Shown here: positions 1 to 13,982 of the stretch, in pieces | How the letters are laid out: every line of letters begins with the position of its first letter | Position numbering within the stretch: the first letter of the stretch is position 1 | Source: Gimibacter soli | Lineage (GTDB): Bacteria > Pseudomonadota > Alphaproteobacteria > Sphingomonadales > Kordiimonadaceae | Assembly (NCBI RefSeq): GCF_028463845.1 | Contig: NZ_CP116805.1 | Coordinates: 310,001-374,000, forward strand | Reading direction: 5' to 3' | DNA: 64,000 bases | Program-made: the position numbers and the translations under genes | Notes under the pieces: generated by a model | The model's input: the letters and a program-made list of their open reading frames with translations, nothing else | Told to the model about the DNA's origin: nothing | Database searches by the model: none

Positions 1-23
1 TGGGATGGCCTGAGATCAATCTA

Positions 24-530
24 TCAGCAGGTTCTCCCGCCTGCCCCATTGTAATATCCCTTTGAAAACCGGCAGTATTGGTCCGCAGTACCGGTCTCGA
101 TCATGGCGCGGCTCACGTCGCGGCCGTCCGCCAAATAACAGCGACCGACCGTGCGATTGTAGCTCTCGCCCATGTCGTCACAGGTCACAAAGGAGCGGCC
201 AACAATAACTTCAAGGGCCGCTGTGGCAGCTGGTCCTTCCGCAGTATCCCGTTCCGGGGCATCAAGACCCCAAAGCCGGATCCTGCGACCGTCCGCAAGG
301 ACAAACGTGTCACCATCGATCACGCGCTCGACGTGTCCCGATAGGGCGCCATTTGTGCCTGCAGCAGCATCTGAATCAGTTGAGGTATAGAATCGGTCAG
401 TGGCTACCGCTGCAAAGATGAGGACAAGCACAAGGAGGGGCTGGCGCGATAAACGTCGCAGCGTGCTTTGTTTACTCGTCGTGGCCCGTTTGCGGGGCCG
501 GCGCGGAGGCAATGGATGCAAGGTGGCCAT
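24..530 (-). CDS. Membrane-anchored thermonuclease-like (SNase fold) protein
   Basis: 168 residues. A basic N-terminus (about 1-30) is followed by one hydrophobic segment (about 31-44), so the protein is probably exported or anchored with its C-terminal domain outside the cytoplasm. The rest is a staphylococcal-nuclease-like domain: VIDGDTF, RLWGLDAPE and NRTVGRC supply the family's Asp, Asp/Glu and Arg catalytic positions, so an active Ca-dependent DNA/RNA endonuclease is plausible. Four cysteines in the second half could form disulfides. AGGGA lies about 10 bases before the ATG. It is the last gene before the window edge, on the same strand as the ATPase/nitrilase pair but separated by about 150 bp, so a link to that unit is only possible. 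Confidence 0.85.
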   Translation of the reverse strand: MATLHPLPPRRPRKRATTSKQSTLRRLSRQPLLVLVLIFAAVATDRFYTSTDSDAAAGTNGALSGHVERVIDGDTFVLADGRRIRLWGLDAPERDTAEGPAATAALEVIVGRSFVTCDDMGESYNRTVGRCYLADGRDVSRAMIETGTADQYCRFSKGYYNGAGGRTC

Positions 531-682
531 ATGACAAGTCCCTGCCTATAGGCTATTCGCTCAACCGCAGACACGATCTGAGAACGCCAAATAAAAGACG
601 TGAGCTAACTTCAGAATAATGTCTTGCGCTTTCCAGAAAACGTCTATCTTTGAAGCAGCACCTGTTTTGGATTGCACCGCTG

Positions 683-3600
683 CTAATCAGACTTTCGCGA
701 TAATGTGAACTTCCGAAACTCACCGTCTCCAAGAAAATCGAACTTCCGTTCGAACAGTGTCGCAAGTTTGTCATTAGCTGTAGCAAAGAAAATTTGACGA
801 CGGCCTGTAATGGCTATTTCGCGCAGGTAATCGAAAAACGAAAGTGAGTTCAAATCGTCAACATGCGCGATTGGGTCGTCAATCAACATAACCGGCGGCG
901 CTACTGTGAGTTGGCTGTTTTGAGCTAGAAAAAGTGACAACCCAAATGCGGCACGCTGTCCGGTGCTAATTTCGGTCAGTTTGGATTGGCACCTGTCACT
1001 CTTGCGGACCAAGGTCGCAAGCGAGGAACCCAACCCTGAGAATTCCCGCGGAGCGTGGATAGCAGAAAATATTGACTCGATCGCAGTACGGTTAAGCTGA
1101 AGTGTGGACTCCATCGCGGCCTTGAGTGAGTGGCCTTGCCTTATCTTGTTGAGGGCCTTTTGGGCTGTTGCAAAACGATCGATGCGTTGCGAAAGCTTCG
1201 TCAATTGCTCACTTAGTTGTTCCTTGCGCGCTCGCGCCTCCGATTGGATCTTATCAGCCTGCCTTTCACGAGCCGATGCTGCCTGCGTCTCAGCGGCCAC
1301 GCTGCGAACGGATTCCCCCGCAACGATGAATTCTGAAATAGGGTGATCGCCGGGCCATGGAATGGACTCACGAAATCCATCGAGCCGCGAAAGGATTGAT
1401 TCAGTCTTGGAGAGCTGTTCTTTGGTCTTGAGAAGGACAGGTCTAATCTCGTCTGCGCTTAGCGCGGCCCCCAGCCGATCCCGCAATGAGACTTGGAGTT
1501 CCGCCGCCTCCTTCGACAATAATTCGAGTTGTTCGGATGTCGTCGATATCTGCTCTTGGATTGACGACACCAACTGATCCGCAGCCTTGTGGGAAAGGTG
1601 CTCGAGAGGAAACCCAAGGTCATTCATTCGAGAGACGAGCCGATCCATTTCCTCGAGAGAAAGACCGGCATTGTCGAGATCTTCGATTTTCTGCGTCAGA
1701 GTTTGGAGGCGAGCCCGGGATGATGCCAAGCTTTCACTTATGCCCAAGGCTTGGGCCGCAGCTTCCCCTATCGTCAACTCCACCTTCTGGTCTGAGCGCT
1801 CGCAAAATTCGCGCAACCGAAGCAAGGCCGTTTCAACTCGTTTCGCATCATTGAGAGCGGCCTCCTGATTCTCTATCTGATTGAGGAGTGATCGCCCGAG
1901 CGGTTCAAGGTGAGCGTCCAAACCTCTGCTCATGTGGTTGGCCAACTCGCCCGGTTCGAACTGTGTATGGCACAGCGGGCATTCATCCGGATTGGTGGCG
2001 CGGTCTAGTATGGCTGCGGCAAGTTGCCGCAATTGCTGCGTCAGGTTTTCCGATTCATCTCTCAGCTTGGCGAAATTGGCATATTCAGCCTTTGTCGCTG
2101 CAAGCGCCGACTCTGCGATCACACGCTTTCGAGTTGCGGCCCGCTCAGAGATGGCCACGACTTCATCCTTCTCAAGTCCAGCAAGGATTTCGAAATGCTC
2201 GGCTTCGAACCCTGCTACCCTCATAGAACTAAACGTGATGGTGTCGTTCAGCTTACGACGCTCTGCGCTGAGGTTGGCCACGCCAGCGTCGATAAAACGC
2301 TGAGCTTGAACTCCTAGCTCCAAAGCCTGTTTCGCGCTGCTCAGTACGCGAGTTAGCCGTAGATGCTGACCTGTAGCCTTTTCAAGCCGGTCGATTTCGG
2401 GTGTGACTTCATTGACAAGCGCGATGGTATTTTGGTGGTAATTGACAAGGGCATCATATGTGACCGGTGAGCCAGCCCAATGAATTTCAACAGCTTGCTG
2501 GGCGATGGCGATCGCTTCCGCGAGCCCTCCGACAAATTTTTCCGTCGAATCCTCATCCACATCCGGTTCGAGGTGCCAGTGATGGCGGGCGATCATCTCA
2601 AATAAGCGTGTTCGAAGTGAATCCGATTGGTGCCGTTCATCCGCAGAGTCGCTGAGTTGTTTCTCTATCCGCGAAAGCTCGGACCTGATTTGGTCTTGGG
2701 TGGATCGGAGGTCTTTTAATCTGACTTTGACACCATCGCTTACGCGCTCGATATCTCGCCAAATCTTCGAAGCATCAGGGCCAACGAGGAGTTTGGATAG
2801 ATCTTCTTCCACGTGGTCGGCCGATTCGGAAAGGCTAACTGCAGCGTCAGTGTCGAGAAAATTGAATTGAGCAAAGCTCTTGTACAAATTATTGGTTTTG
2901 ATCTCGAACTGCCCATACCATGCGAGATTGCGCTCACGAAAGTCTTGTGGCGTCCGGCTGGACACCGCCCGCTCCTCGGTTCCATCCGCCAAGACGGCTT
3001 TTAGCTCGTATTGAGTATTGAGGTCGGGATTTCGCTTGGTTCGACCACAGTAGAATAGCTCTATCGCTTCAAGAAGAGAAGTCTTGCCAGAAGCGTTCGG
3101 ACCGAAGATCAGGTTCACGGCACCAAAGTCATAGGTTCGGCGGAGGGGGAACTGTCGATAACGCTTTAGTTCAAGTGAACGAAGCGATTGAGCTGATTTG
3201 GCGAAACGCCTGCGCGGCGGCTCGGCTGCTTTGCGACCCTCTGGGGAGTTAACTTCAATCTTTTTCAGTCGAGTTGGGAGATCATCATCGCTAAGGATCG
3301 CCCCTTGGATGCCAGCTTCCGTTAGAATATTGATCCAAGCCGACAAAACGTTCTCTTGTCGTTTGTTCTCAGTGGCCGTAACGATGGGAGGGTTAAGGAT
3401 TTCCTCAAGATTTCCTTCCGGAATTACGAATTTGCGCGCATATGATCTATCGTTTTCAATGAGTTCCTTCGCTCGCTGCGCTTCGGCGAGAGCGAGTTCC
3501 TCGTTGGTTCTCAAGAAGTACAGATAATTGCTCCACTGAAGACTTTTCCTGCCTTCAAAATACCGTTTCCCTATGACTTCGTCCTGATAGCGGTTCAAAT

Positions 3601-3763
3601 CATGGAGGCTATTCGGAAGCTCGTGCGCGATGTCGAGATAGTAGACCGCAAAGGGGCAAGCTTCGGCGCTTCTGGTGAAACGGATAACAGAGTCATTGAC
3701 TTGTTCTGCGCCCGGGAATTGGCGCTCGATGCGTTCCCGAAGGTCGCCCATATTAATGGTCAT
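683..3763 (-). CDS. Rad50/SMC-like ATPase with zinc hook and extra N-terminal domain
   Basis: 1026 residues. After about 200 residues that I do not recognise comes an ABC head: Walker A GPNASGKT (221-228), long coiled coils, a CPLC zinc-hook motif (595-598) at the tip, an STGQR signature (933-937) and Walker B LIDDP (960-964) followed by a D-loop-like HVDD. This is the Rad50/SbcC/RloC layout: the hook dimerises two molecules through Zn and the heads sense or process DNA. The ATG overlaps the stop of the upstream nitrilase-like gene (ATGA), so the two are translationally coupled and probably made in fixed ratio. The gene is not SbcC, because no SbcD nuclease is next to it and the N-terminal extension is atypical. 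Lamassu LmuB is the closest functional analogy I can offer; assignment to that family is inference. Confidence 0.85.
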   Translation of the reverse strand: MTINMGDLRERIERQFPGAEQVNDSVIRFTRSAEACPFAVYYLDIAHELPNSLHDLNRYQDEVIGKRYFEGRKSLQWSNYLYFLRTNEELALAEAQRAKELIENDRSYARKFVIPEGNLEEILNPPIVTATENKRQENVLSAWINILTEAGIQGAILSDDDLPTRLKKIEVNSPEGRKAAEPPRRRFAKSAQSLRSLELKRYRQFPLRRTYDFGAVNLIFGPNASGKTSLLEAIELFYCGRTKRNPDLNTQYELKAVLADGTEERAVSSRTPQDFRERNLAWYGQFEIKTNNLYKSFAQFNFLDTDAAVSLSESADHVEEDLSKLLVGPDASKIWRDIERVSDGVKVRLKDLRSTQDQIRSELSRIEKQLSDSADERHQSDSLRTRLFEMIARHHWHLEPDVDEDSTEKFVGGLAEAIAIAQQAVEIHWAGSPVTYDALVNYHQNTIALVNEVTPEIDRLEKATGQHLRLTRVLSSAKQALELGVQAQRFIDAGVANLSAERRKLNDTITFSSMRVAGFEAEHFEILAGLEKDEVVAISERAATRKRVIAESALAATKAEYANFAKLRDESENLTQQLRQLAAAILDRATNPDECPLCHTQFEPGELANHMSRGLDAHLEPLGRSLLNQIENQEAALNDAKRVETALLRLREFCERSDQKVELTIGEAAAQALGISESLASSRARLQTLTQKIEDLDNAGLSLEEMDRLVSRMNDLGFPLEHLSHKAADQLVSSIQEQISTTSEQLELLSKEAAELQVSLRDRLGAALSADEIRPVLLKTKEQLSKTESILSRLDGFRESIPWPGDHPISEFIVAGESVRSVAAETQAASARERQADKIQSEARARKEQLSEQLTKLSQRIDRFATAQKALNKIRQGHSLKAAMESTLQLNRTAIESIFSAIHAPREFSGLGSSLATLVRKSDRCQSKLTEISTGQRAAFGLSLFLAQNSQLTVAPPVMLIDDPIAHVDDLNSLSFFDYLREIAITGRRQIFFATANDKLATLFERKFDFLGDGEFRKFTLSRKSD

Positions 3764-5610
3764 CCCTGCCTCCCGATATCAAATTCTGAACGATCTGCTG
3801 TCTTGTCGATCCTAGTGTAGTTATGTGTGCCATAGACTACGAACTGGTCATTCTCGTCACGATACCAAACTGCCAGTCGCTGGCGAGACTGGAGACTTTC
3901 GTCCAGATTGGAAGACCTCCTTTGAAGGAATTCGGCTATCCTTTTCGTTGTGGCCTCCACCTGTTTGAGATTCGCATCTTCGCCCAGGTAGACGACGGTA
4001 GCTTTGAGGCCTTGCCCGGAGACTACGTTTTGATGTGGGGCGTCGGGCGACCAATGCAGGTGGAATCCTTCCCGCAAGTCGGCCAATGCAGGAGGAATTT
4101 TCGCATCGTCTTGCAGTATATCCCAAAGATGGCCGCAACGCTTGAGGCGAGCGGTTCTAAATTCGCATGCGCTCTGGTCGCTATCCTGACAGAACGTGAG
4201 CCTATAGATGATCTCGGAGGTATCAATACGGCAAGAATCCAGATTGGACACTTTGTGCCAATCGTCTGTTTCATCGATCTTACCCGCGCAAAGAGCCATT
4301 ACGCGTTCTGCTGCAAAGGGGTTTTGATCGGATATTTGTTGGATATCGTGCTTGGCGCTTCCGGCCTCACCGACAATGGCGGAGAAGCCGTCTTTCACAG
4401 CCATTTGTTCGGCCCAGGCACCCGAATCATTATCCCAGATGGAAACTCTTGCAATTTGTGGACCTCGCCTGCGTGAGCTGACAGCGGGAACCCCGACATG
4501 CGCTACTTTGGTCGCATTTACGAGATACGTCGCTGGCTGGTAATTAAAGAAGAGGGCATGGACGTATAATGGTTGAAGCCATGTATAGTAGAGGCCGAGT
4601 TTGTGGTTTGCGTGGAGCGTTTCATCCCGGATGTCGAACTTGTCTGGTTTCAAATACCAGGCCGAACCAGAAATATTTTGCCAATTGATCTCGTTGCCGC
4701 CAATCCTTATGCGGATATCGCTAGCCCAGTTAAGGCAAATAAGTTCGGTGGCGTCTCCCTGAAATTGCAGCAATTTGTCCCGATATCGCCGGAACTGATC
4801 CTGTCGTGGCTTAGGGTTAAGCTGTATGTGGAGAACCATCCCACGGTCGTAGATGGCCTGAGCGTCTGCGTCATAAAAGGCTAAGGCATCGGAACAGATC
4901 AGAGAGACGAAGCTTATCTCCTGTCCGGCAAAGCCGCCAAACCTGTAAATGCGCGTACCACGCTGCATCCCATTGACCTCGAAATGATCCTGATCGGCCA
5001 TAGGATGCGTCTTAAACTGGATTAGGACGACAAGTTTCGTTTCCTCTTGGTTTTGCTGAACAGGAGCAAGAAAGATATAAGCGAGAGGATCGAGAAAGCG
5101 ATCAGGATCGGGTTCTAGCCCTTCGTAGAGCAAGGTAGCATGCGGTTCGAGTTCAGCTTTTAGCGCATCGAGCTCAGCATGCGATATGCTCTCGCATCCA
5201 AGGGCCCAAAGCCGCTCGGCTTCAGGCGTTTGTCCGGCTTTGATTGCTTCGGACAAGACCTCCCAGGGCATCGCATATTCTGGAGTCGCTATAAGATCCG
5301 GCTGGGTGGCGCAGGCGTCGGTGAGAAACCGGCCAAATTGAGCTCTCGCCAGATCACGATCAAAGTTACGCACTCCCGCATCGTCTACCTCTAAGACACC
5401 TTGAGGCTGCATCAAGAGGACCTTGTAATTGTCGACGTTTGGAATCAGAGCGCGGAGGGTTGGCGTATCGAGACCCTCGGTTTGCAAGATTTGATGAACA
5501 TGCGCTATTTCCATACCTGCGGCAGCACCTAGCAAAGCTTCAAATTCGTCCCTAGTGGCATATGGCGATGGACCTAGCCTATCATCACTAAACGCATCTA
5601 AATAGTTCAA
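3760..5610 (-). CDS. Nitrilase-superfamily (C-N hydrolase) domain protein, partner of the Rad50-like ATPase
   Basis: 616 residues. Residues about 60-300 match the nitrilase fold: ATPEYAMPW holds a candidate Glu111, QFKTHP a candidate Lys200, and SLICSD a candidate Cys239. Their order and spacing (89 and 39 residues) fit the Glu-Lys-Cys triad of the family. The remaining 300 residues carry no motif I recognise. Known nitrilases cleave nitriles, amides or NAD-like substrates; a nitrilase domain is also present in DRT type 1 antiphage reverse transcriptases, whose chemistry is unclear. The gene precedes the Rad50-like ATPase with a 4-base overlap. The assigned start is a TTG with no clear Shine-Dalgarno; an in-frame ATG exists at codon 33. 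I read it as the effector or regulator of a two-gene system; this is inference. Confidence 0.72.
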   Translation of the reverse strand: MNYLDAFSDDRLGPSPYATRDEFEALLGAAAGMEIAHVHQILQTEGLDTPTLRALIPNVDNYKVLLMQPQGVLEVDDAGVRNFDRDLARAQFGRFLTDACATQPDLIATPEYAMPWEVLSEAIKAGQTPEAERLWALGCESISHAELDALKAELEPHATLLYEGLEPDPDRFLDPLAYIFLAPVQQNQEETKLVVLIQFKTHPMADQDHFEVNGMQRGTRIYRFGGFAGQEISFVSLICSDALAFYDADAQAIYDRGMVLHIQLNPKPRQDQFRRYRDKLLQFQGDATELICLNWASDIRIRIGGNEINWQNISGSAWYLKPDKFDIRDETLHANHKLGLYYTWLQPLYVHALFFNYQPATYLVNATKVAHVGVPAVSSRRRGPQIARVSIWDNDSGAWAEQMAVKDGFSAIVGEAGSAKHDIQQISDQNPFAAERVMALCAGKIDETDDWHKVSNLDSCRIDTSEIIYRLTFCQDSDQSACEFRTARLKRCGHLWDILQDDAKIPPALADLREGFHLHWSPDAPHQNVVSGQGLKATVVYLGEDANLKQVEATTKRIAEFLQRRSSNLDESLQSRQRLAVWYRDENDQFVVYGTHNYTRIDKTADRSEFDIGRQG

Positions 5611-5625
5611 CGTGTGGTAGTTTTA

Positions 5626-5638
5626 GTGATTAAATCAC
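5626..5638. promoter_or_regulatory. Palindrome just upstream of the nitrilase/ATPase operon
   Basis: GTGATTAAATCAC is a perfect 6-1-6 inverted repeat lying 16 bases before the start codon of the operon on the minus strand. Size, AT-rich centre and position suit a dimeric repressor site. No regulator gene of that operon is adjacent; the nearest DNA-binding protein is the HTH protein at 6334-6636. Confidence 0.4.
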
Positions 5639-5821
5639 CGTATCCAATGACCAGTGTAAAATCAATGCGCAGCCGTCCTTTCGCCACAAGTTCACCACAG
5701 ACGAGAGCAGTCTCAGTCAGTCTTTGGCGGATTTCTGCGGATTAGCGGCAAACCGATTTTGCGGCAAGAAAGAGGGCATCTACTCTCCTTTGGCTGTGAC
5801 ATATTCCAGTAACCACACGTT
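5639..5821. other. Non-coding left flank of the putative replication origin
   Basis: No supported gene. Around 5725-5770 the tetramer GCGG recurs four times in about 45 bases (GCGGATT twice, GCGGCAA twice), perhaps degenerate protein-binding sites. I see no consensus DnaA box here. Confidence 0.35.
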
Positions 5822-5963
5822 GTTGATGCGGGAAAAGATGCCTTCTATCCGCTTCCAGCGGCATTCACCCCTTTTCCCCGCATCAACACCCTTCTCCACC
5901 GCTCGCCCTCAAGGCGAAGCAGTGGAGAAATTCATTATTGATCCTAACAGGATCATAATGAAT
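5822..5963. repeat. Three consecutive long hairpins beside the iterons (putative single-strand initiation or origin structures)
   Basis: Hairpin 1 (5822-5887) pairs GTTGATGCGGGAAAAG with CTTTTCCCCGCATCAAC, one bulge, with further nested pairing (CCGCT/AGCGG) inside. Hairpin 2 (5892-5929) pairs TTCTCCAC..GC..GCC with its complement, one mismatch and one bulge. Hairpin 3 (5930-5963) pairs ATTCATTAT(T)GATCCT with AGGATCATAATGAAT across a 3-base loop. They abut, followed by AT-rich DNA and the iterons. IncQ plasmids such as RSF1010 have stem-loop initiation sites (ssiA, ssiB) for their primase next to the iterons, which is the natural comparison. Function here is inferred. Confidence 0.6.
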
Positions 5964-6022
5964 CTTAGAGAGAGAGCGATACTTGAAATATACTATATAA
6001 TTCAACATGTTGTATTTTATCT

Positions 6023-6112
6023 GCGGAACACTGATTGGCAAAAGCGGAACACTGATTGGCAAAAGCGGAACACTGTTTGGCAAAAGCGGAACACTGTTTG
6101 GCAAAAGCGGAA
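6023..6112. repeat. Iteron array: four 21-bp direct repeats plus a partial fifth
   Basis: Four head-to-tail units start at 6023, 6044, 6065 and 6086; each begins GCGGAACACTG, has ATT (first two) or TTT (last two), and ends GGCAAAA. A truncated unit, GCGGAA, follows at 6107. Exact tandem spacing of two helical turns beside AT-rich DNA (5964-6022) and upstream of a helicase/primase cassette is typical of initiator-binding iterons at a plasmid origin. Because 21 is divisible by three, the array also reads as a fake heptad-repeat peptide. Confidence 0.8.
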
Positions 6113-6268
6113 GCATCTCTTTGCCGGCCATTTACTAGGGCATGCGAAAAATATTTTTCAAATGAAAAATCCGCAGAATTCCGCCACTTCTTATCAATGA
6201 GTGTTGCGTATAATATATCTAGCACGCGAATGTTGTTGACTCTGTGATTATTTCATAGTATGTCATGA

Positions 6269-6296
6269 TTGACCGCTAGCATGCCATGTGCATAAT
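6269..6296 (+). promoter_or_regulatory. Sigma-70 promoter for the replication cassette
   Basis: TTGACC (6269-6274), 16-base spacer, CATAAT (6291-6296): five of six matches in each box. Transcription would begin near 6303, about 30 bases before the ATG at 6334. It is one of the best-matching promoters in the window. Confidence 0.6.
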
Positions 6297-6333
6297 ATGA
6301 CCTCATAGTTACACCACTTTGAGGACGTATGTC

Positions 6334-6636
6334 ATGATCCCCCAACATCTTCGAACAATCGGTATCGACGAGCTCGCAAAAATTCTTGCGCTCGAGCCGA
6401 GGACAATTCAGAGGCGCCTGACCGAGATGCCCGACCGCCTGCCAACCCCCATTCGCGCAACCTCAGGTCAACCCGTTCGCTGGCGAGTAGACGTCGTCGA
6501 TGAATGGGTAAAGGCGCAGGAATCTGCCACTTATATCGGCCTTCGCGAGCGCTGCCGCAAGACGGCGATTGGTGCAAAGCGGATCTCGAAAATGACGCCC
6601 GAAGAGCGCGTCGCCCGCGGCTTCCAGGCAGCATAA
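6334..6636 (+). CDS. Small helix-turn-helix protein (AlpA/excisionase-like), putative replicon regulator
   Basis: 100 residues from the ATG at 6334, chosen because GAGG lies 9 bases upstream; a TTG at 6319 would add five residues but has no ribosome binding site. Residues about 6-30 (GIDELAKILALEPRTIQRRL) form a winged-HTH of the AlpA/MerR-like class, then a WRVDVVDEWV helix usual in AlpA-type proteins, and a basic C-terminus. Lying between the iterons and the initiator gene, it suits a copy-control repressor, comparable in place to small repressors upstream of repA-repC in IncQ plasmids. An excisionase role is the alternative, since the region ends at a tRNA gene. Confidence 0.65.
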   Translation: MIPQHLRTIGIDELAKILALEPRTIQRRLTEMPDRLPTPIRATSGQPVRWRVDVVDEWVKAQESATYIGLRERCRKTAIGAKRISKMTPEERVARGFQAA

Positions 6637-6646
6637 TCGAAAGAAA

Positions 6647-6681
6647 AAGACCCGCAAGCTGTTGGCGCAGCAGCGGGTCTT
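6647..6681 (-). terminator. Stem-loop after the HTH gene, U-tract on the minus strand
   Basis: AAGACCCGC (6647-6655) pairs perfectly with GCGGGTCTT (6673-6681), with GCTG/CAGC pairing inside the loop. The T-rich run (complement of GAAAGAAAAA) lies on the minus-strand exit side, so as a terminator it would stop leftward transcripts. On the plus strand it might act as an attenuator or a message-stabilising hairpin between the HTH and initiator genes. Confidence 0.4.
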
Positions 6682-6779
6682 GTGGATCAATTAGCGCGAT
6701 CTCGGCGCGACAAAAAGATCTAGCCACAGATTGATCTTACTGTCGGGAGGCCGATTGCGCAATAAAAAAGCGACGATTC

Positions 6780-7535
6780 ATGGCCATCCCAAACTTTGAA
6801 TTTGCTCTAATCCCGCAGAAACTTGCGCTTGAGAACAGCTTTTTGTCCTGTGGCCGCCGCCGCGGACTAAAGCCCAATCACCTTCGACTTTTCCTGTATC
6901 TGATGTCAGCCTCTCAAGCTGCCTCTATGCCCTTCAATCGGCTCGAATATGAGATTTCGGTAAGCTCCATTTTTTGCAAGATGGGCCTGAAAGGGAGATA
7001 CAGCACATCGCAGATTCTTTTTATGATTGCACCCCTCAACTCGTTGCTGATCAACGATGAGCCTGCCCTGGAAATATCGTTCCACCCCTCATCCGCCGGC
7101 CATAGTCGATTTACTGTTTCCCTCTCCCCAGCCCTATCCGCGGTAGTGGTTGGCCATCGCGGCGAAGACGGAAAAGCACTGCCCCGAGGGCCAGAGCATG
7201 CTTTCACAAAAATTCCCCTCAAATGTGTCAATGCATTGCGCGATCTGTCGCTCCTTCTGCTCGTCCGCGCTGCAGCACGCGGCCACTGGAAGCCAAGTCT
7301 CGAAACGCTCGATTCCCTCCTTTTCGCTGCCCCTGCTGCGCCCCTTGGGTCGCGAGGCCAGCGGCGCAGAAATGCTGCGATCAGGGCGGCTGTAGCAGGC
7401 CTCGAGAATAGCGGCAGTGACATCTACATGGCTCAAACCTCTGAAAATCAATTCGAAAAGATTGAACGTCCGAACTCCAAGAAGGCCGAAACGCCGAGAC
7501 TAAAACTAGTAAGGAGTTTTAAAAATGCAGCGTGA
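6780..7535 (+). CDS. Probable plasmid-type replication initiator (RepC-like)
   Basis: 251 residues, cytoplasmic, basic. I do not recognise a named family by motif. Two segments look like winged-helix initiator cores: about 22-75 (HLRLFLYLMSASQA followed by an SxxxF.KMGLKG helix) and about 140-200 (ALRDLSLLLLVRAAARGHW followed by SLETLDSLL, resembling a second winged helix). It lies 670 bp past the iterons and overlaps the helicase gene by 11 bases, the place RepC holds relative to RepA in IncQ-type replicons, though the order here is initiator first. The iterons are its expected binding target. Function rests mainly on context. Confidence 0.55.
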   Translation: MAIPNFEFALIPQKLALENSFLSCGRRRGLKPNHLRLFLYLMSASQAASMPFNRLEYEISVSSIFCKMGLKGRYSTSQILFMIAPLNSLLINDEPALEISFHPSSAGHSRFTVSLSPALSAVVVGHRGEDGKALPRGPEHAFTKIPLKCVNALRDLSLLLLVRAAARGHWKPSLETLDSLLFAAPAAPLGSRGQRRRNAAIRAAVAGLENSGSDIYMAQTSENQFEKIERPNSKKAETPRLKLVRSFKNAA

Positions 7536-8490
7536 TCCGATCATCCTCGACGCCCTGTTTCCGCATCGAATTGCGGATGCATTTTCTCGACGTATTGATC
7601 TTGCAAAACTCGCTGAAATTGGCCCAACCCCGATCGATTTTGTCCTGCCAGGATTTGCGAGAAAAACGGTCGGTGTGATGGCCGGCAAGACCGGCGTGGG
7701 TAAAAGCTGGGCCGTACTCCAGCTTGCGATCTCAAAAGCTGTCGGTCTCGACTTATGGGGCATATTTCCGGCCGGTGTAGACGACCCTAAGCCGGGCGCA
7801 GTTCTGTATGTTGCCCTCGAGGATCCGATCGAGGTGATTGAGCAACGACTGCACACCCTATGGAATCATATTCAGTGGCAGATGTCAGATGAGCAGAAAT
7901 GTCTATATCACTTGAACTTGCATATAATTTGCGAAGATCGGGGCGTTACTCTGTTTGAAACAGCTCGTGAACGTGGGCAGGTCGCGCCCACACTGTATTT
8001 CGATCGTTTCGAGAAGGTCGTAGCTGAGATCAAGCCTGATCTCACAATAATTGATACAATGTCGCAGGCCGCCGCTGGAATTGACGAGAATTCTTCCGGC
8101 GAAATGAGTCACTTTCTGCAGCAAGCCCGCGCTTTCGTCCATCGTCAGTCGACATCTCTGCTACTCCTCGCTCACGTTGTGAAAGGTGATGTTGCAGACC
8201 TGATCGATGCACTCCGCGGATCGAGCGCGATCTCGAGCAACACTAGATTGATGCTGCACCTGGGGAAGTTGAATGAACGGGAAATCGAGGAGCTAGATAT
8301 CGATCCCTCCGCTGCGGCCCAGCTTGTCAAATTTACATTCGTCAAAACGAATTTCGACCGACTGTCTGGCATGTCGACAATCCTCAACAAGGCGATGAAC
8401 GGCGTCCTAAAATTCTTCGATCGCCATCCAATCCCACGGCTGCCGTCTGCCCGACACGACCGGTTTGCGCACCGTCGTCATAGGTCATAG
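7525..8490 (+). CDS. repA: RepA-type hexameric replicative helicase (RecA-like AAA_25)
   Basis: 321 residues. Walker A GKTGVGKS (54-61), an ALED motif with candidate catalytic Glu99, Walker B LTIIDT with Asp177, and LLLLAHVVKG as the sensor strand: the layout of RSF1010 RepA and related small hexameric 5'-3' helicases that open the origin without DnaB. Length is close to RepA (about 280) with an extra basic tail of about 30 residues rich in Arg and His. AAGGAG stands before the ATG, and the start overlaps the initiator stop by 11 bases, implying coupled expression. DnaB-loading by a host protein would not be needed if it works as in IncQ plasmids. Confidence 0.75.
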   Translation: MQRDPIILDALFPHRIADAFSRRIDLAKLAEIGPTPIDFVLPGFARKTVGVMAGKTGVGKSWAVLQLAISKAVGLDLWGIFPAGVDDPKPGAVLYVALEDPIEVIEQRLHTLWNHIQWQMSDEQKCLYHLNLHIICEDRGVTLFETARERGQVAPTLYFDRFEKVVAEIKPDLTIIDTMSQAAAGIDENSSGEMSHFLQQARAFVHRQSTSLLLLAHVVKGDVADLIDALRGSSAISSNTRLMLHLGKLNEREIEELDIDPSAAAQLVKFTFVKTNFDRLSGMSTILNKAMNGVLKFFDRHPIPRLPSARHDRFAHRRHRS

Positions 8491-8502
8491 TGGAGGTCGC
8501 TA

Positions 8503-9432
8503 ATGGCCAGAATTCCAGAAAATCTGATCGACCGGGCTATGCAGACAGATATGTTGTCCATTCTGCAGTATTTCAACGTCGCGCCAGACCCTAACGATCG
8601 CAAGCGATATAAAACGCTGGACAAGTCAAATCATATAAAAATTGAAAATGATGTCTGGGTCGACTTCAATCAGCCCGGCCGGCCAGGCAAAAAGAACGCT
8701 GGCGGGCGCGGACCGATATCACTGTTCCAACATCTTGCAGCAGTCGACTTTACGACAGCCGTGCATGACCTGGCTGGCACACCCCTACCTCATCCCTCCA
8801 AAGAATTCCTGACACAGAGAAAGCGGGCACATGATCTCAATGCGCCCAAATTCTTCCCTCCCCGTCTCAACAGGTCAGTCCTTCCCGCTGCCCTGGATTG
8901 GCTAGTAAGCGTGCGCGGCATCCAGCCTAATTTTGTGAACCGCATGATCGCAGCCGGGAAGATCATCCCAGCTCAATCTAAGTCGCTTGGCCCGGTAATT
9001 TGCTTTCCAATGACAAGTCCGACAGGCGAAATAGTGGGTGCCGAGGTTATCCTGCTCACTCCGCCTTCAGGCATGAAAAACAAGCAGGTTTGGGGTGGGG
9101 CTGCCGCGAAATCCTCCGGCCGTTTCGCGCTTGAATCCGGGAAAAATGGCCCAAACGTACTGGTTGAGTCTGCAGTCGACGGCCTATCGTATTTTCAAAT
9201 GTACGAATCAGACCGACAGTTCCAAGTGCTCAGCATAGCTGGCAGGCCATCCCTTCCCCTCGCCTGGGTTGAGCCCGGTCGTTCACTTATCTGCGCGACC
9301 GACGCAGATGCAGCCGGTGATGAACTCTACATGAAGATTGCCGAACATCACCCCCTCCGCGCGCGCGAGACACCCCCCACTGGCAAAGACTGGAACGACC
9401 ATCTGAAAAATCAGAAAATCCCGATGGGTTAA
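8503..9432 (+). CDS. TOPRIM primase-like protein (DUF3991/Toprim_2 type)
   Basis: 309 residues. The N-terminal 110 residues carry a basic DNA-binding-like segment; residues about 125-210 resemble the DUF3991 linker (DWLVSVRGI, GPVICFPMTSPTGEIVG); residues about 218-300 are a TOPRIM domain with Glu222 in VESAVDG, DADAAGD (Asp267, Asp269) and the terminal GKDWND motif seen in mobile-element primases. It probably makes primers for this replicon. GGAGG precedes the ATG by 7 bases and the gene follows the helicase after 12 bp. RSF1010 uses the unrelated RepB' primase, so this is a different solution in the same genetic position. Confidence 0.7.
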   Translation: MARIPENLIDRAMQTDMLSILQYFNVAPDPNDRKRYKTLDKSNHIKIENDVWVDFNQPGRPGKKNAGGRGPISLFQHLAAVDFTTAVHDLAGTPLPHPSKEFLTQRKRAHDLNAPKFFPPRLNRSVLPAALDWLVSVRGIQPNFVNRMIAAGKIIPAQSKSLGPVICFPMTSPTGEIVGAEVILLTPPSGMKNKQVWGGAAAKSSGRFALESGKNGPNVLVESAVDGLSYFQMYESDRQFQVLSIAGRPSLPLAWVEPGRSLICATDADAAGDELYMKIAEHHPLRARETPPTGKDWNDHLKNQKIPMG

Positions 9433-9484
9433 GCGCAGTGGTGCGGGCGGGGGTTGTCGGCGGGTGCAGGGCCACCCTTGTGGC

Positions 9485-9510
9485 ACCCCAGATCCTCCTG
9501 GATCTGGGGT
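9485..9510. repeat. Perfect 11-bp hairpin downstream of the primase gene
   Basis: ACCCCAGATCC and GGATCTGGGGT surround a TCCT loop, 53 bases after the primase stop codon. No U-tract follows on either strand, so an intrinsic terminator is unlikely to be its only role. A single-strand origin, or an mRNA 3' hairpin, are options. It sits in a GC-rich 230-bp non-coding stretch that also holds the oriT candidate. Confidence 0.5.
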
Positions 9511-9585
9511 CAAGGGCCTACGGCCCGATGCCCGGAACCGGCAGACAAGGCCTCCCCAAAAGGTTCCGGGCGGCCCTATAGGGAC

Positions 9586-9625
9586 GTCTGGAAGGGGGCC
9601 GACCCCTAACACGGTGCGCCCTATC
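9586..9625. other. Candidate origin of transfer (RSF1010/MOBQ-like nic region)
   Basis: TAACACGGTGCGCCCT (9607-9622) resembles the RSF1010-family nic region, in which TAAGTGCGCCCT is the conserved core: GTGCGCCCT is identical, but the distance to TAA is longer here. A short inverted repeat, AGGGG..CCCCT (about 9593-9607), lies directly upstream, as MobA-type relaxases require. CCCTATAGGG, a 10-bp palindrome, is just further left (9574-9583). No relaxase gene is in view, so transfer would need one in trans or beyond the window. Confidence 0.45.
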
Positions 9626-9663
9626 AAATCTGAAAATGCAGCGTTGTGATTGACGTGTTATAA

Positions 9664-9891
9664 ATGCGGTCAGAAAAGAAGGCCGTATACATGATCAAGA
9701 AAACGCTCGACCAGATGAGCCGTGAAATCGAAGCCCGGCGGGCAACCGCCGAGATCGATTGTGATCGCCCGATTGCCAATTCCGGCCTGCGCAGAACCGA
9801 GCGGAAACGGATTATCTTGCAAGATATGACGAACCGCTTCCCCGACGCGGCCATCAAAAGCAACTACGTACCCGGTGCGCCCAAATTTTAA
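9664..9891 (+). CDS. Small basic hypothetical protein next to the oriT candidate
   Basis: 75 residues from the ATG at 9664, or 66 from the ATG at 9691, which has the better upstream GAAGG. Charged and helical (SREIEARRATAEI, RRTERKRIILQDM), Arg/Lys-rich, no membrane segment. I do not recognise it. Its place beside the oriT candidate would suit a relaxosome accessory or a copy-control factor, but nothing in the sequence proves this. Confidence 0.45.
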   Translation: MRSEKKAVYMIKKTLDQMSREIEARRATAEIDCDRPIANSGLRRTERKRIILQDMTNRFPDAAIKSNYVPGAPKF

Positions 9892-9892
9892 T

Positions 9893-10033
9893 GGGTTATC
9901 AGGTATCAGATAACCCCATACCTGATATGGGCTTATCTAGTATCAGGTATCTCATATCTGATACTTTCTGGGTAGGTACGCTGATAGAAAGCAAGGAGAT
10001 ACCTGATATCAGGTATCCAGATACCTGATTCTA
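9893..10033. repeat. Array of overlapping palindromes built on TATCAGGTAT
   Basis: In about 140 AT-rich bases: GGGTTATC..GATAACCC (9893-9916), CCCATA..TATGGG (9915-9931), AGTATCAG..CTGATACT (9939-9965), the perfect 18-bp palindrome ATACCTGATATCAGGTAT (9999-10016) and another ATACCTGAT (10021-10029). The shared decamer TATCAGGTAT/ATACCTGATA occurs in both orientations. This is a protein-binding array: arm-type integrase/excisionase sites, a partition centromere or a second origin element. It lies between the replicon genes and the tRNA 3' end. From 10034 to 10154 I see only short repeats of GGCTACCT. Confidence 0.65.
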
Positions 10034-10154
10034 CAAAATCCCAAACCTACATTTCTCAGGAAATCATTAGCCAAGAGTCATATCAATGGCTACCTATTGG
10101 CTACCTGTAGCTAACAGGTTGATTTCGGAAAATCTTCTAAGTCATTGAAAGAAA

Positions 10155-10231
<77 letters not shown>

Positions 10232-10590
10232 ATGGCCGATTCGTTTGTCGGCGCGGACACTATACGGTTCGTATGCCTTGCGCAAGCGCCAAGGCGGGAC
10301 TCGGGCCGGGTGGCGGGCTCGATTCGACGGCCGATTTACGCTGCGCCGCAGCATTTGTCACCACCGCCTCAGCCGGCATCAACTTTTTATATCCATATAT
10401 TTCAATGCGTTGAATGAATTTTTCTGGAATCGATAAAATTTGAATCATTCAGTTACCGGCCCTTAAGAAGGTTAACGGTAAAAGCTCGCCAACGCCGGAC
10501 GGGACCCAAGTGGTTCCGATTAGTACCCCGGACCGGCTCAATAAGAACATCTGACTGACGTAACAATTCGTTTCCATGAAGGACTGACTG
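10232..10590 (+). promoter_or_regulatory. Non-coding spacer with a probable promoter for the TonB-C gene
   Basis: No gene supported. TTGAAT (10410-10415), 16 bases, GATAAA (10432-10437) is the best promoter match; transcription near 10444 would give a leader of about 145 nt. GAAGGA stands 7 bases before the ATG at 10591. The stretch marks the return to chromosomal content. Confidence 0.35.
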
Positions 10591-11047: not shown

Positions 11048-12676
11048 TCAGGCGACGCGTTCGGAAACCGCGCGGCCGAAAGGCACCAGCACCGAATCAA
11101 CGGCATGCGACATGGTCTCGGGATAATCCGCCGTGAAATGCAGGCCGCGTGATTCTTTCCGGATCATGGCGGAGCGCACGATAAGGTCAGCAACCGTGAC
11201 AAGGTTGCGGAGCTCCAGAAGGTCCGCCGTTACCCGGAAGTTGCCATAATAGTCCTGGATTTCGGTCTGCAACAGATCAACCCGCCGCTTGGCGCGCGAC
11301 AGGCGCTTGTCGGTGCGCACGATGCCCACATAATCCCACATGAAGCGGCGGAGCTCGGCCCAATTGTGGGTCACCACCACTTCCTCGTCCGAATCCGTCA
11401 CCTTGCTTTCGTCCCAGTCGCGGGCCTGGCCCGGCGGGGGCAGGTCATCGAAGCGGGCAAGGATGTCGTCAGCGGCTGCACGGCCATAGACAAGGCATTC
11501 CAGAAGACTGTTCGAGGCCATGCGGTTGGCGCCGTGCAGGCCGGTGTGGGCGCATTCACCCACAGCATAGAGCTGGTCGAGATCGGTCCTTGCCGTGAAA
11601 TCGACCATCACGCCGCCGCAGGTATAGTGTGCGGCCGGCACCACGGGGATGCGGTCCTTCGTGATATCGATCCCGAAGGTGCGGCAATGCCGGTAAATGG
11701 TCGGGAAATGCGACAGGATGAAATCGGGCTCGCGGTGGGTGATATCCAGCCACACGCAGGGCTGGCCGCGGCGTTTCATCTCGCTGTCGATCGCGCGAGC
11801 GACGATATCGCGCGGCGCCAGTTCCTCGCGCGGGTCATAGTGCGGCATGAAACGACTACCGTCGGCGTTCCTGAGAACCGCCCCCTCGCCCCGCATCGCT
11901 TCGGTGATCAGGAAGGTCTTGGCCTCGGGGTGATAAAGGCAGGTCGGGTGGAACTGGTTGAATTCCATATTGGCGACCCGGCAGCCGGCCCGCCACGCCA
12001 TGGCGATGCCGTCGCCCGTGGCGCCGTCAGGGTTCGAGGAATAGAGATAGACCCGGCTTGAGCCACCGGTCGCGAGGATCGTGGCGCGCGCCGTGAAGGT
12101 CTCCACCCGGTTCTTGCCGCGGTTGAGCACATAAACACCGTGCGCCTGATCGTTATAAGGCGCCTTCGATTTCAGGTGGCGGTTGGTGATCACATCAATC
12201 GCCATATGATCGGTGAAAAGGTCGATATTGGGCTCGGCCATCACCCGCTCGATGAGCGTGCCCTGCACCGCCGCCCCCGTGGCGTCGGCCGCATGGATGA
12301 TGCGGCGGTGGCTGTGGCCGCCTTCGCGCGTCAGGTGATAATCGTAGCCGTCTTCAACGCTGCCATCGGCCTTGTCGAACGCCACGCCAAACTCGATCAG
12401 TTCCTCGATGGCCTCGCGGCCGCGTTCCACCACGAAGCGCACGGCGGCCTCGTCGCAGAGCCCGGCACCGGCGATGAGCGTGTCGTCGATATGGGACTGG
12501 ATCGTGTCGGTTTTCTCCAGCACCGCCGCGATACCGCCCTGTGCCCAATTGGTGGAGCCCGCATCAAGCTCGTTTTTCGAGATCACCGCGATGCGCATGT
12601 GTCGCGCCAGATGCAGCGCGGCGGTAAGGCCTGCCGCCCCCGTGCCGACAATCACCACATCATAGGTGCGTCTCAT
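11048..12676 (-). CDS. nadB: L-aspartate oxidase
   Basis: 542 residues, full length. Oxidises L-aspartate to iminoaspartate with FAD, the first step of NAD biosynthesis. FAD-binding GTGAAG (11-16) at the N-terminus, the [11 protein letters not shown] motif, the active-site region [28 protein letters not shown] and the RGEGAVLRN flavoprotein segment are present, with the helical C-terminal domain carrying the RDKRLSRA-type motif ([12 protein letters not shown]). The ATG overlaps the stop of the ABC ATPase gene by four bases, an unusual pairing. nadA and nadC are not in the window. Confidence 0.95.
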
Positions 12677-13620
12677 GCTGCTTCCCCGCTCTGGCGGCGC
12701 GTCAGCTGCAGGAAGATATCCTCAAGGTCTGTCTCGCGCGTCGAGATATCAACGATGGTCAGTCCTGCCTTCTGCACAGCCGCAAGCACCGCGCCCACAT
12801 TGGCGACCGACTGGTTGAGCTGCACAGTCACGCCGTGATCGCCGTTGAGGCTGGCGTCAAAGGCCGCGAGGCTGCCGGGCACTTCGGAAAGCGTCTCGGC
12901 GACCATGATGGTCACCTGCTTCTCGTCGATGCGTTTCAGGAGTTGCTTTGTCGGCTCGCAGGCCACCACTTCGCCGTGGTTGATGATGGCGATGGTGTCG
13001 CAAAGCTCTTCGGCTTCCTCGAGATAATGGGTGGTCAGCACGATGGTGGTGCCGCGCGCATGCAGTTCGCGCACATAATCCCAAAGCTGCTGGCGAAGCT
13101 CGATATCCACGCCCGCCGTCGGCTCATCAAGGATCAGGATCGGCGGGGTATGTACCATCGCCTTGGCAACCAGCAGGCGGCGCTTCATACCACCCGAAAG
13201 GGTGCGGGAATAAGCGTCGCGCTGTTCCCAGAGATGCACGGCCTTCAGGAGTTCCTCGGTGCGACGGTCGGCTTGCGGCACGCCGTACATGCCGGCCTGC
13301 ACCTCGAGCATCTCGCGCGGGGTGAAGAAGGCATCGAAGGTCAGTTCCTGCGGCACCACGCCGATATTGGCGCGGGCATTCCTGGGATCTTCCTCGATAT
13401 CATAGCCCCACACGCGCGCGGTGCCGGCGGTCTTGTTCACGAGGCCCGCGAGAATATTGATCGTGGTCGACTTGCCGGCGCCGTTCGGCCCCAAAAGCCC
13501 GAACATGGAACCGCGGGGAATATTGAGGTCGATACCCTTCAGGGCGACCTTGGGCTGGCTGCCCTTGCGGCCCCGGTACGCCTTTGTCAGGCCTTTCAGT
13601 TCGATGGCATTCTCGATCAC
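12673..13620 (-). CDS. ABC transporter ATP-binding protein (ABC-2/DrrA type)
   Basis: 315 residues from GTG at 13620, chosen because GAGGA lies six bases upstream; a longer reading to 13785 lacks conserved sequence. Walker A GPNGAGKS (44-51), Q-loop GVVPQE, signature LSGGMKRR, Walker [13 protein letters not shown]-loop TTHYLEE. The C-terminal 85 residues are the accessory domain of DrrA/CcmA-like exporters. No permease is adjacent; it is co-transcribed with nadB instead, so its membrane partner must be elsewhere and the substrate is unknown. Confidence 0.9.
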
Positions 13621-13799
13621 GTCGCTGTCCTCTGGGTCAATTCTTGGATGCTTAAGATTCCCCTTACCCTGAAGCGGTACCAGATGGCGCCGGTAGCGGT
13701 CAATTGCGCCGGACATGCGCCGGGCGGCCTTCGCGTGCTTGTGAAGGCGGGAAGCCTTGTTTATATAGGGGCAAAGCCAGCGCAATGTAAGGTGACGCC

Positions 13800-13982
13800 A
13801 TGTCTGTAGACGCTCCTGAAATCAAGCATGTGAACACGAAAACCGTAGCCTGCGACGGCGACGAGGGCCCGCTCGGCCATCCGCGCGTCTATCTGACGAT
13901 GAACGAAGACGGCCAGGTTGAATGCCCTTACTGCGACCGCCTCTTCATCCTTGACGGCGAACCTGTCGACGATCACCACTGA
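13800..13982 (+). CDS. Zinc-finger CHCC-type small protein (NDUFS6-like)
   Basis: 60 residues. Cys18, His27, Cys42 and Cys45 match the zf-CHCC domain of the complex I accessory subunit NDUFS6 and its short bacterial relatives. The stop overlaps the polA start by one base (TGATG), so translation is coupled. In alphaproteobacteria such proteins are thought to be complex I assembly or accessory factors; that is family knowledge, not shown here. Confidence 0.85.
   Translation: MSVDAPEIKHVNTKTVACDGDEGPLGHPRVYLTMNEDGQVECPYCDRLFILDGEPVDDHH

Follow-up and report, generated by a model that had tools for sequence, protein, structure and literature searches.

The block at positions 5822-9432 of the 64,000-nucleotide stretch of the Gimibacter soli genome analysed here (the window, G000:C1:310001-374000; the source genome is a single contig of 3,591,784 bp) probably constitutes the replication module of an integrative and mobilizable element (IME) inserted at a tRNA-Arg(CCG) gene, which would replicate transiently by IncQ-like strand displacement after its excision. 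Hairpins, AT-rich DNA, iterons, a promoter-like site and four genes lie together in this block, as an earlier sequence-only reading of the same DNA had stated, and the designation of the block in that reading as an IncQ-like replicon with a RepA-type helicase is upheld by the match of the helicase to the structure 1g8y. The features of the module and of its surroundings are given below in window coordinates unless noted otherwise.

1..10150: right third of the integrative element, which as a whole is 29,953 bp long (G000:C1:290198-320150)
5725..5743, plus strand: left copy of a 19-bp motif, TGGCGGATTTCTGCGGATT, candidate single-strand initiation site (ssi) or operator
5821..5888: long hairpin (stretch 5812-5895, z -7.8 on the plus and -6.7 on the minus strand; 0/200 shuffles as good)
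5892..5929: second hairpin (stretch 5888-5935, z -5.9; 0/200 shuffles as good)
5935..6022: AT-rich segment with 27% GC adjoining the iterons, candidate melting region
6023..6112, plus strand: iterons, 4.3 tandem copies of the 21-bp GCGGAACACTGATTGGCAAAA (Tandem Repeats Finder, 98% matches)
6168..6186, minus strand: right copy of the 19-bp motif
6269..6296, plus strand: sigma-70-like promoter TTGACC-16-CATAAT (10/12) upstream of the helix-turn-helix (HTH) gene
6334..6636, plus strand: HTH protein of 100 aa from the ATG, excisionase/AlpA-like or a regulator
6647..6681, plus strand: hairpin between the HTH and initiator genes (stretch 6640-6700, z -3.7)
6780..7535, plus strand: putative replication initiator of 251 aa, very divergent RepC-like
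7525..8490, plus strand: RepA-type hexameric replicative helicase of 321 aa
8503..9432, plus strand: DUF3991/TOPRIM (DnaG-type) primase of 309 aa
9439..9534: GC-rich structured DNA right after the primase gene, common to a second element of the genome, weak candidate priming site
10151..10212, minus strand: att repeat of 62 bp overlapping the 3′ end of tRNA-Arg(CCG)
10155-10231, minus strand: tRNA-Arg(CCG) gene
G000:C1:290198-290259: the other att copy, 62 bp, exact
L015:2421-3686: tyrosine integrase with an Arm-DNA-binding domain, just inside the att copy at 290198-290259

The block forms the right end of an integrated element, since att repeats and an integrase delimit the latter and a same-genus genome (G064) has a single att core and lacks the element. 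The element ends are exact 62-bp repeats of the tRNA-Arg(CCG) 3′ part plus flanking sequence, and the GC content is 52% both over the whole 29,953-bp interval and over the element part of the window, compared to 62% in the window flank outside. In G064, where the full att core is listed once, the right flank is continuous (92% over 1,859 bp) and the left flank is matched nearby in part (91% over 852 bp), although from this left match to the att core G064 differs from the source genome; a search of G064 for the helicase and the initiator gave no match to either. A loose chromosomal block was rejected on account of the 62-bp repeats and the interval that they enclose. The sequence-only reading, which had placed the replicon in a chromosome-like contig, was therefore right that it lies inside a chromosome, but the att repeats assign it to the integrated element, as its right end, and not to the chromosomal backbone, and the proposed ability to integrate is borne out by the same repeats together with the integrase. 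Apart from site-specific integration, the incomplete conjugation apparatus expected of an IME was also found, and the element is named an IME because no further conjugation part was recognised among its scanned proteins (small ORFs excepted) beyond a MobC/NikA-like protein, a relaxase-like protein and a DotA/TraY protein. Close to the att repeat, between a small open reading frame (ORF) and the tRNA gene, repeated CAGGTATC/GATACCTG words were seen by eye at window 9940-10035 and are possibly integrase arm sites.

The first of the replication proteins to be assigned is the helicase, which matches AAA_25 in Pfam (E=8e-26) and, among PDB entries at E<=0.01, the RSF1010 RepA only (1g8y/1nlf/1olo, E=2.7e-18), and shares its motifs with five RepA-like proteins; the RSF1010 RepA-family hexameric helicase of IncQ plasmids is thus present. 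Relatives were found in 790 of 72,556 plasmid records (E<=1e-5), all below 60% identity, and in 2 of 50,697 phage records; among 346 genomes of the order, the only match (E<=1e-12) is the source genome itself. The BLAST comparison with plasmids proposed in the sequence-only reading, in which the initiator matched 0 of the 72,556 records (E<=1e-3), places the helicase homologues on plasmids and not solely in phage satellites or chromosomes. A phage-satellite origin was rejected on the two phage matches of the helicase and the absence of any for the initiator (0/50,697, E<=0.1), and viral contigs scanned for the initiator, helicase, primase and iteron yielded no relative. A RepA gene or match adjoins an IncQ-type RepC in all nine plasmids examined, which are not an unbiased sample, as they were picked by a RepA or RepC match: six came from the helicase search (pGXY040, pPNAP08, pDSM14862_g, pTC-F14, pCCK13698 and pKPC-b33e) and three from a RepC search (pYR11, pF321-3 and pKPSH212). 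Three helicase matches were found in other genomes of the class (385 sampled), two of them (L034, L035) adjoining proteins that match RepC in Pfam, and at the third locus, L036, no ORF of at least 150 aa aligns with RepC. A profile scan of genome contigs with a two-sequence helicase alignment, prefiltered by two peptide patterns, gave one relative (Vibrio injensis, L040) among 147 pattern matches. Relatives were searched for in 346, 385, 346, 385, 256 and 266 genomes, and because these samples were drawn from larger groups at stated E-values, the estimates of rarity are rough.

Next, the DNA upstream of the genes contains the tandem ~20-bp iterons and adjoining AT-rich region that are also a feature of IncQ plasmids. 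The 19-bp motif copies flank the iterons, one per strand, and constitute an 18/19 inverted match, a value not reached in 200 dinucleotide shuffles of 5611-6330, which peak at 17, once. The pair is unique, as the pattern occurs exactly only at these two places in the 3.59-Mb genome and with 2 mismatches at two more. In RSF1010, the sites ssiA and ssiB are likewise described as one ssi per strand (PMC4434180); the copies here read equally well as ssi or as shared operators of the HTH gene and an outward-reading 616-aa ORF. From the start of the latter at 5610 to that of the HTH gene at 6334, no gene was accepted, as a matter of judgement, and mechanical ORFs of up to 158 aa that span the iterons were set aside as non-genes. 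Promoter-like sites of the quality of that at 6269..6296 number 6 in 5600-6800 versus 1.5 in shuffles. The 15-bp oriV motif of IncQ-like plasmids, in the form given in PMC7557826, is absent from the element part of the window when up to 3 mismatches are allowed; five matches occur elsewhere in the window, where 2.3 are expected by chance. An Rfam scan of window 5400-10300 gave only the tRNA above the gathering score.

The putative initiator, from the sequence comparisons, is probably a very divergent RepC. MAFFT aligns its C-terminal half with RepC, and an hhalign comparison of 11 RepCs with the initiator scores 28.6 over 132 columns, compared to a mean of 14.4 (standard deviation 2.6, maximum 23.5) for 200 shuffles. 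In a pool of 285 ORFs, the initiator ranks right after the two RepCs used in the profile, with the next other ORF at 24.5; the pool was assembled from overlapping sources and includes the initiator itself twice and the two profile RepCs, leaving at most 281 controls, some of which are non-coding or duplicated frames. An initiator without relatives of any kind was rejected after the comparisons with the shuffles and the ORF pool, and the view in the sequence-only reading that the initiator is unrelated by motif to that of RSF1010 is probably wrong, because the protein aligns in register with RepC over the 132 columns. Direct relatives are scarce: there is no match in NCBIfam, the best PHROG has E=0.4, and the source genome itself is the only one of 346 order genomes with a match (E<=0.001). 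Weak matches occur in five of the 385 class genomes besides the source, of which that in L026 is Rho and that in L037 is without a Pfam family, and no helicase was found near any of the five (L026, L027, L037, L038 and L039; stretches of 2.7 to 16 kb).

Finally, the primase matches Toprim_2 (E=2e-7) and, below the Pfam cut-off, DUF3991 (E=0.007), and full-length homologues of it were found on plasmids; the acidic residues that we take to be those of the TOPRIM motif are visible in its sequence. The helicase gene shares its first 11 nt with the end of the initiator gene, and the primase gene follows the helicase gene after a gap of 12 nt. No RepB' is among the PDB matches of the primase, and none is named in the Pfam scans of the element proteins, although no dedicated RepB' search was run over the rest of the element. 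The primase of the cluster is consequently of the Toprim_2/DUF3991 type and not the archaeo-eukaryotic-type RepB/RepB' primase of IncQ, which supports the earlier assignment to a different type, the TOPRIM/DUF3991 superfamily. Neither is it fused to or beside a relaxase as in IncQ, since the relaxase-like gene is ~11 kb away, and the relaxase-like protein (L016:1691-3550) itself has no TOPRIM match. A pairing of RepA with TOPRIM does exist on plasmids, because the RepA-RepC plasmids pPNAP08 and pDSM14862_g carry a TOPRIM domain fused to the relaxase, with DUF3991 clear in pPNAP08 and below the cut-off in pDSM14862_g, and the primase is clearly similar to the TOPRIM part of pPNAP08 (blastp E=4e-7). 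Here, the TOPRIM primase is a free-standing gene within the replication cluster.

Part of the module is common to a second element of the genome, L057 (examined over 19.9 kb, G000:C1:2849000-2868900), the integrase of which adjoins tRNA-Leu(TAA). L057 encodes an LPD7 relaxase-like protein with 24% identity to that of the main element (E=5e-25), NikA, an HTH relative and a primase relative (24%, E=2e-20; no Pfam match at E<=0.01), whereas the 19.9 kb examined gave neither a helicase, an initiator or a RepC nor any iterons. The structured DNA after the primase gene is 78% identical over 97 nt to G000:C1:2854713-2854808 (L057:5714-5809), and the central hairpin is kept between the two copies though the bases differ. 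Among 266 genomes, only these two places match over the full length and three others over 24-35 nt, with at most 3 candidates scored per genome and up to 27 flagged in the listed genomes; no match was found among plasmids, and no Rfam family for the copy in the main element. Over shuffles, this DNA has a modest folding advantage in either copy (z -2.0 and -2.15; 5 and 6 of 200 shuffles equal it), and this control lowers the standing of 9439-9534 as a priming site, for which it is a weak candidate. From the comparison, both elements seem to share a unit for mobilization plus priming, with the helicase, initiator and iterons added in the main one. A relative of the HTH protein adjoins the L057 integrase (E=1.4e-5), and the protein itself matches HTH_17 below the Pfam cut-off (E=0.013) and phrog_66, 'excisionase and transcriptional regulator' (E=2.3e-6); an HTH protein is therefore present where the sequence-only reading saw an HTH repressor, but it may be an excisionase instead. 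L057 also has candidate defence genes, a CARF6-like one at 11751-12740 (E=1e-94) and its neighbour at 12718-14661.

In IncQ plasmids, RepC binds the iterons, RepA unwinds the DNA and RepB primes at ssi, according to PMC6925257. In the IME, excision driven by the integrase would yield a circle in which the replication module adjoins the integrase gene. The 251-aa divergent RepC-type initiator would then bind the 21-bp iterons and open the adjoining 27% GC stretch, where the RepA-type hexameric helicase would load and unwind the DNA, and the DUF3991/TOPRIM primase, replacing RepB', would prime the exposed single strands, with the inverted 19-bp pair and, less likely, the structured DNA at 9439-9534 as candidate priming sites. 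The element would thereby be copied by strand displacement, which would save the excised form from loss and yield copies for helper mobilization with the relaxase-like protein and MobC, and priming of the transferred strand in the recipient may be a second task of the primase.

Several observations weigh against such an IncQ-like replicon. The initiator has no Pfam match up to E=10, RepC included, whereas three RepC-like proteins (L033, L034 and L035) do match; its hhalign probability is 1.3% with 5 RepCs and 11% with 11 RepCs, its HMMER match to RepC has E=0.004 as a single comparison, and the AlphaFold models of the whole protein and of its C-terminal part are unusable (pLDDT 39.5 and 42.2). 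The gene order initiator-helicase-primase differs from that of IncQ (repA-repC), and no close relative of the replication module was found in the searches described. Neither 19-bp copy belongs to a significant hairpin (z 0.39 and -0.47 for the strands that carry the motif), which sets them apart from RSF1010 ssiA, and they may be operators instead. The primase shows marginal direct similarity to the TOPRIM part of pDSM14862_g (blastp E=0.015), and it may serve transfer and not replication, because L057 has a primase relative without helicase, initiator or iterons.

Some of these points would equally fit an iteron-controlled theta-type replicon, in which the initiator is a winged-helix protein without particular kinship to RepC, the RepA-like helicase belongs to a replisome of its own, and the primase starts lagging-strand synthesis at numerous sites. 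The initiator-first gene order and the absence of hairpins from the 19-bp copies agree with such a replicon, and theta replicons have iterons by AT-rich DNA just as typically, as in the account of pPDL2 in PMC3516476. The RepC-like signal is also compatible with a general Rep3-type initiator, because RepC-like proteins match Rep3 or RPA profiles too, more weakly. The initiator, however, has no Rep_3 or RPA match up to E=10 (it was compared with Rep_3 through Pfam only), and RepA stands beside an IncQ-type RepC in each of the nine plasmids, with the bias of that sample noted above, which makes a theta-type replicon unlikely. Still less probable is a module in support of mobilization, where the helicase and primase would act mainly on the transferred strand and the iterons would control gene expression. 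L057, with its relaxase-like protein, NikA, primase relative and structured DNA in 19.9 kb where no helicase, initiator or iterons were found, speaks for it, as do the relaxases fused to TOPRIM in pAES1 (MobV by annotation), pPNAP08 and pDSM14862_g, but it leaves the combination of helicase, initiator and iterons unexplained, and on the nine plasmids examined replication is assigned by annotation to the RepA-RepC pair. Lastly, a decayed replicon or inactive phage-satellite replication genes, to which the rarity in the sample (helicase and initiator each in 1 of 346 order genomes, the source genome) might point, is very improbable given that all four frames and those of the integrase, relaxase-like and DotA proteins are open, that the helicase motifs are conserved and the presumed TOPRIM acidic residues visible, and that the helicase has matches in only 2 of 50,697 phage records.

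The IncQ-like strand-displacement replicon preferred here shares with the IncQ plasmids (RSF1010 and the MOB-suite IncQ1/IncQ2 types, e.g. pGXY040 and pTC-F14) a RepA helicase, ~20-bp iterons by AT-rich DNA, a dedicated primase, mobilization genes and a probable RepC-type initiator. Unlike in IncQ, the primase is of the DUF3991/TOPRIM type instead of RepB' and is separate from the relaxase, the initiator lies beyond the reach of BLAST and Pfam, and the whole is integrated and has an integrase. The element would thus work like IncQ yet is not filed as IncQ, because the primase type, the gene order, the fusion and the 15-bp motif do not agree. The closest plasmids in gene content, pDSM14862_g (a RepQ plasmid of Sulfitobacter indolifex) and pPNAP08 (Polaromonas), combine a RepA helicase and TOPRIM in one replicon, and the pDSM14862_g relaxase also carries LPD7 like the relaxase-like protein of the element, but both are free plasmids with a canonical RepC and a TOPRIM domain fused to the relaxase. 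RepQ plasmids are described as replicating in an alphaproteobacterium (PMC9025767).

Integrated elements with related replication genes are also known. In PMC5704250, tyrosine-integrase islands at guaA are described, among which GIsul2 is listed with RepA and RepC and IncP islands with RepA; both have a few borrowed mating-pore genes (TrbJ, TrbL), the IncP islands have a relaxase in addition, and their RepA/RepC are called theta-type. As far as these descriptions allow a comparison, the overall plan of integrase, replication genes and few mating-pore genes is common to them and the element, which differs in lying in tRNA-Arg and not guaA, in having an I-type DotA/TraY pore gene as opposed to P-type ones, and in its divergent initiator and TOPRIM primase. 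A similar module was found in genome G384 (L035:7923-13406), where guaA, an Arm-type integrase, RepA and a PF06504 RepC (E=5e-155) stand in a row; like the element, it combines an integrase with IncQ-like replication genes, but at the guaA site. This module resembles GIsul2 and the IncP islands and suggests that at least such islands carry IncQ-type replication proteins, and it strengthens the view that the element follows an already known IME plan, which, by analogy, appears to be that of the IncP islands with I-type parts. The sequence-only reading had considered the block a new small-replicon type able to integrate; integration stands, but the newness is overstated, because IMEs with RepA/RepC are already in print (PMC5704250) and because of the G384 guaA module. 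The present combination was not found described in the literature searched on IncQ-like integrated replicons and DUF3991/TOPRIM primases, which here comprised mostly non-subscription papers.

The best-tested precedent for an IME replicon is SGI1, which is reported to become a plasmid of 4-8 copies after excision with the helper present (PMC7826253) and to bring its own type IV secretion system (T4SS) subunits (PMC5389848). Like SGI1 as described in these sources, the element is an IME with a T4SS part, with the difference that replication after excision was observed for SGI1 and is proposed for the element; moreover, the RepA of SGI1 is IncN2/N3-related and its TraN/H/G parts are suited to IncC helpers, whereas the element has an IncQ-like module and a lone DotA/TraY. 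The SCCmec elements with CCPol-MP/Cch2, according to PMC7581432, are likewise integrated with their own helicase and primase, but the primase is based on an A-family polymerase and the helicase is of 3′-5′ polarity.

A more specific model, in which RepB' has been exchanged for a DnaG-type TOPRIM primase from a mobilization module, initiation takes place at own sites (the 19-bp pair and/or the structured DNA), the initiator represents a new family, and the replicon serves the transient replication of an IME that brings its own TraY-type pore protein as an I-type counterpart of the IncP islands, is tentative and on balance doubtful in its entirety. Should the preferred IncQ-like reading hold, the strand-displacement replicon would be modular, with the helicase kept, the primase swapped across superfamilies and the initiator drifted beyond the reach of BLAST; replicon typing via RepC or RepB would miss such elements, and SGI1, GIsul2 and the IncP islands, which are mobilizable islands joining a replicon with few borrowed mating-pore genes, would gain an I-type counterpart in the element. 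Concrete candidate priming sites are on offer.

The remaining parts of the element that bear on its mobilization are the following.

L016:3547-4014, minus strand: MobC/NikA-like protein
L016:1691-3550: LPD7 protein of 619 aa adjoining MobC/NikA, with LPD7 as its sole Pfam domain, taken for the relaxase
G000:C1:302377-304866 (L015:14377 to L016:866), minus strand: lone DotA/TraY gene (TIGR04346 over the larger part, E=3e-51)

No relaxase domain was matched in the 619-aa LPD7 protein by Pfam. The protein has matches in 13 of 72,556 plasmid records, three of which are annotated relaxases (21%, E=8e-6), and hypothetical proteins from Paracoccus and Sulfitobacter score better (E to 2e-10). The DotA/TraY gene has 829 open codons if read from an upstream TTG. 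No other conjugation parts were recognised among the scanned element proteins, with small ORFs outside the scan, and no TraJ-type ATPase over the cut-off was found in the whole genome; matches to this family below the cut-off are also present in 13 of 14 control genomes. By analogy, the lone DotA/TraY may remodel the mating pore of a helper, as SGI1 TraG and IncP-island TrbL are thought to do, or may supply a T4SS subunit to an I-type helper.

The element also encodes a 1026-aa ATPase with LmuB-like matches, which adjoins the 616-aa protein without any match (window 683-5610), and the pair resembles defence or conflict genes carried by the IME as cargo. Other genes include those for a Y-family (ImpB/MucB/SamB) polymerase (L016:4395-5771), a staphylococcal-nuclease-like protein, an Xre/MbcA-type antitoxin-like protein and a metallophosphoesterase. 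A 529-aa protein with thrombospondin type 1 repeats (L015:11370-12959) adjoins a subtilase-like protein (12979-13905), and near the integrase lies a protein of 596 aa that has a VRR-NUC nuclease domain at its C terminus (L015:4098-5888).

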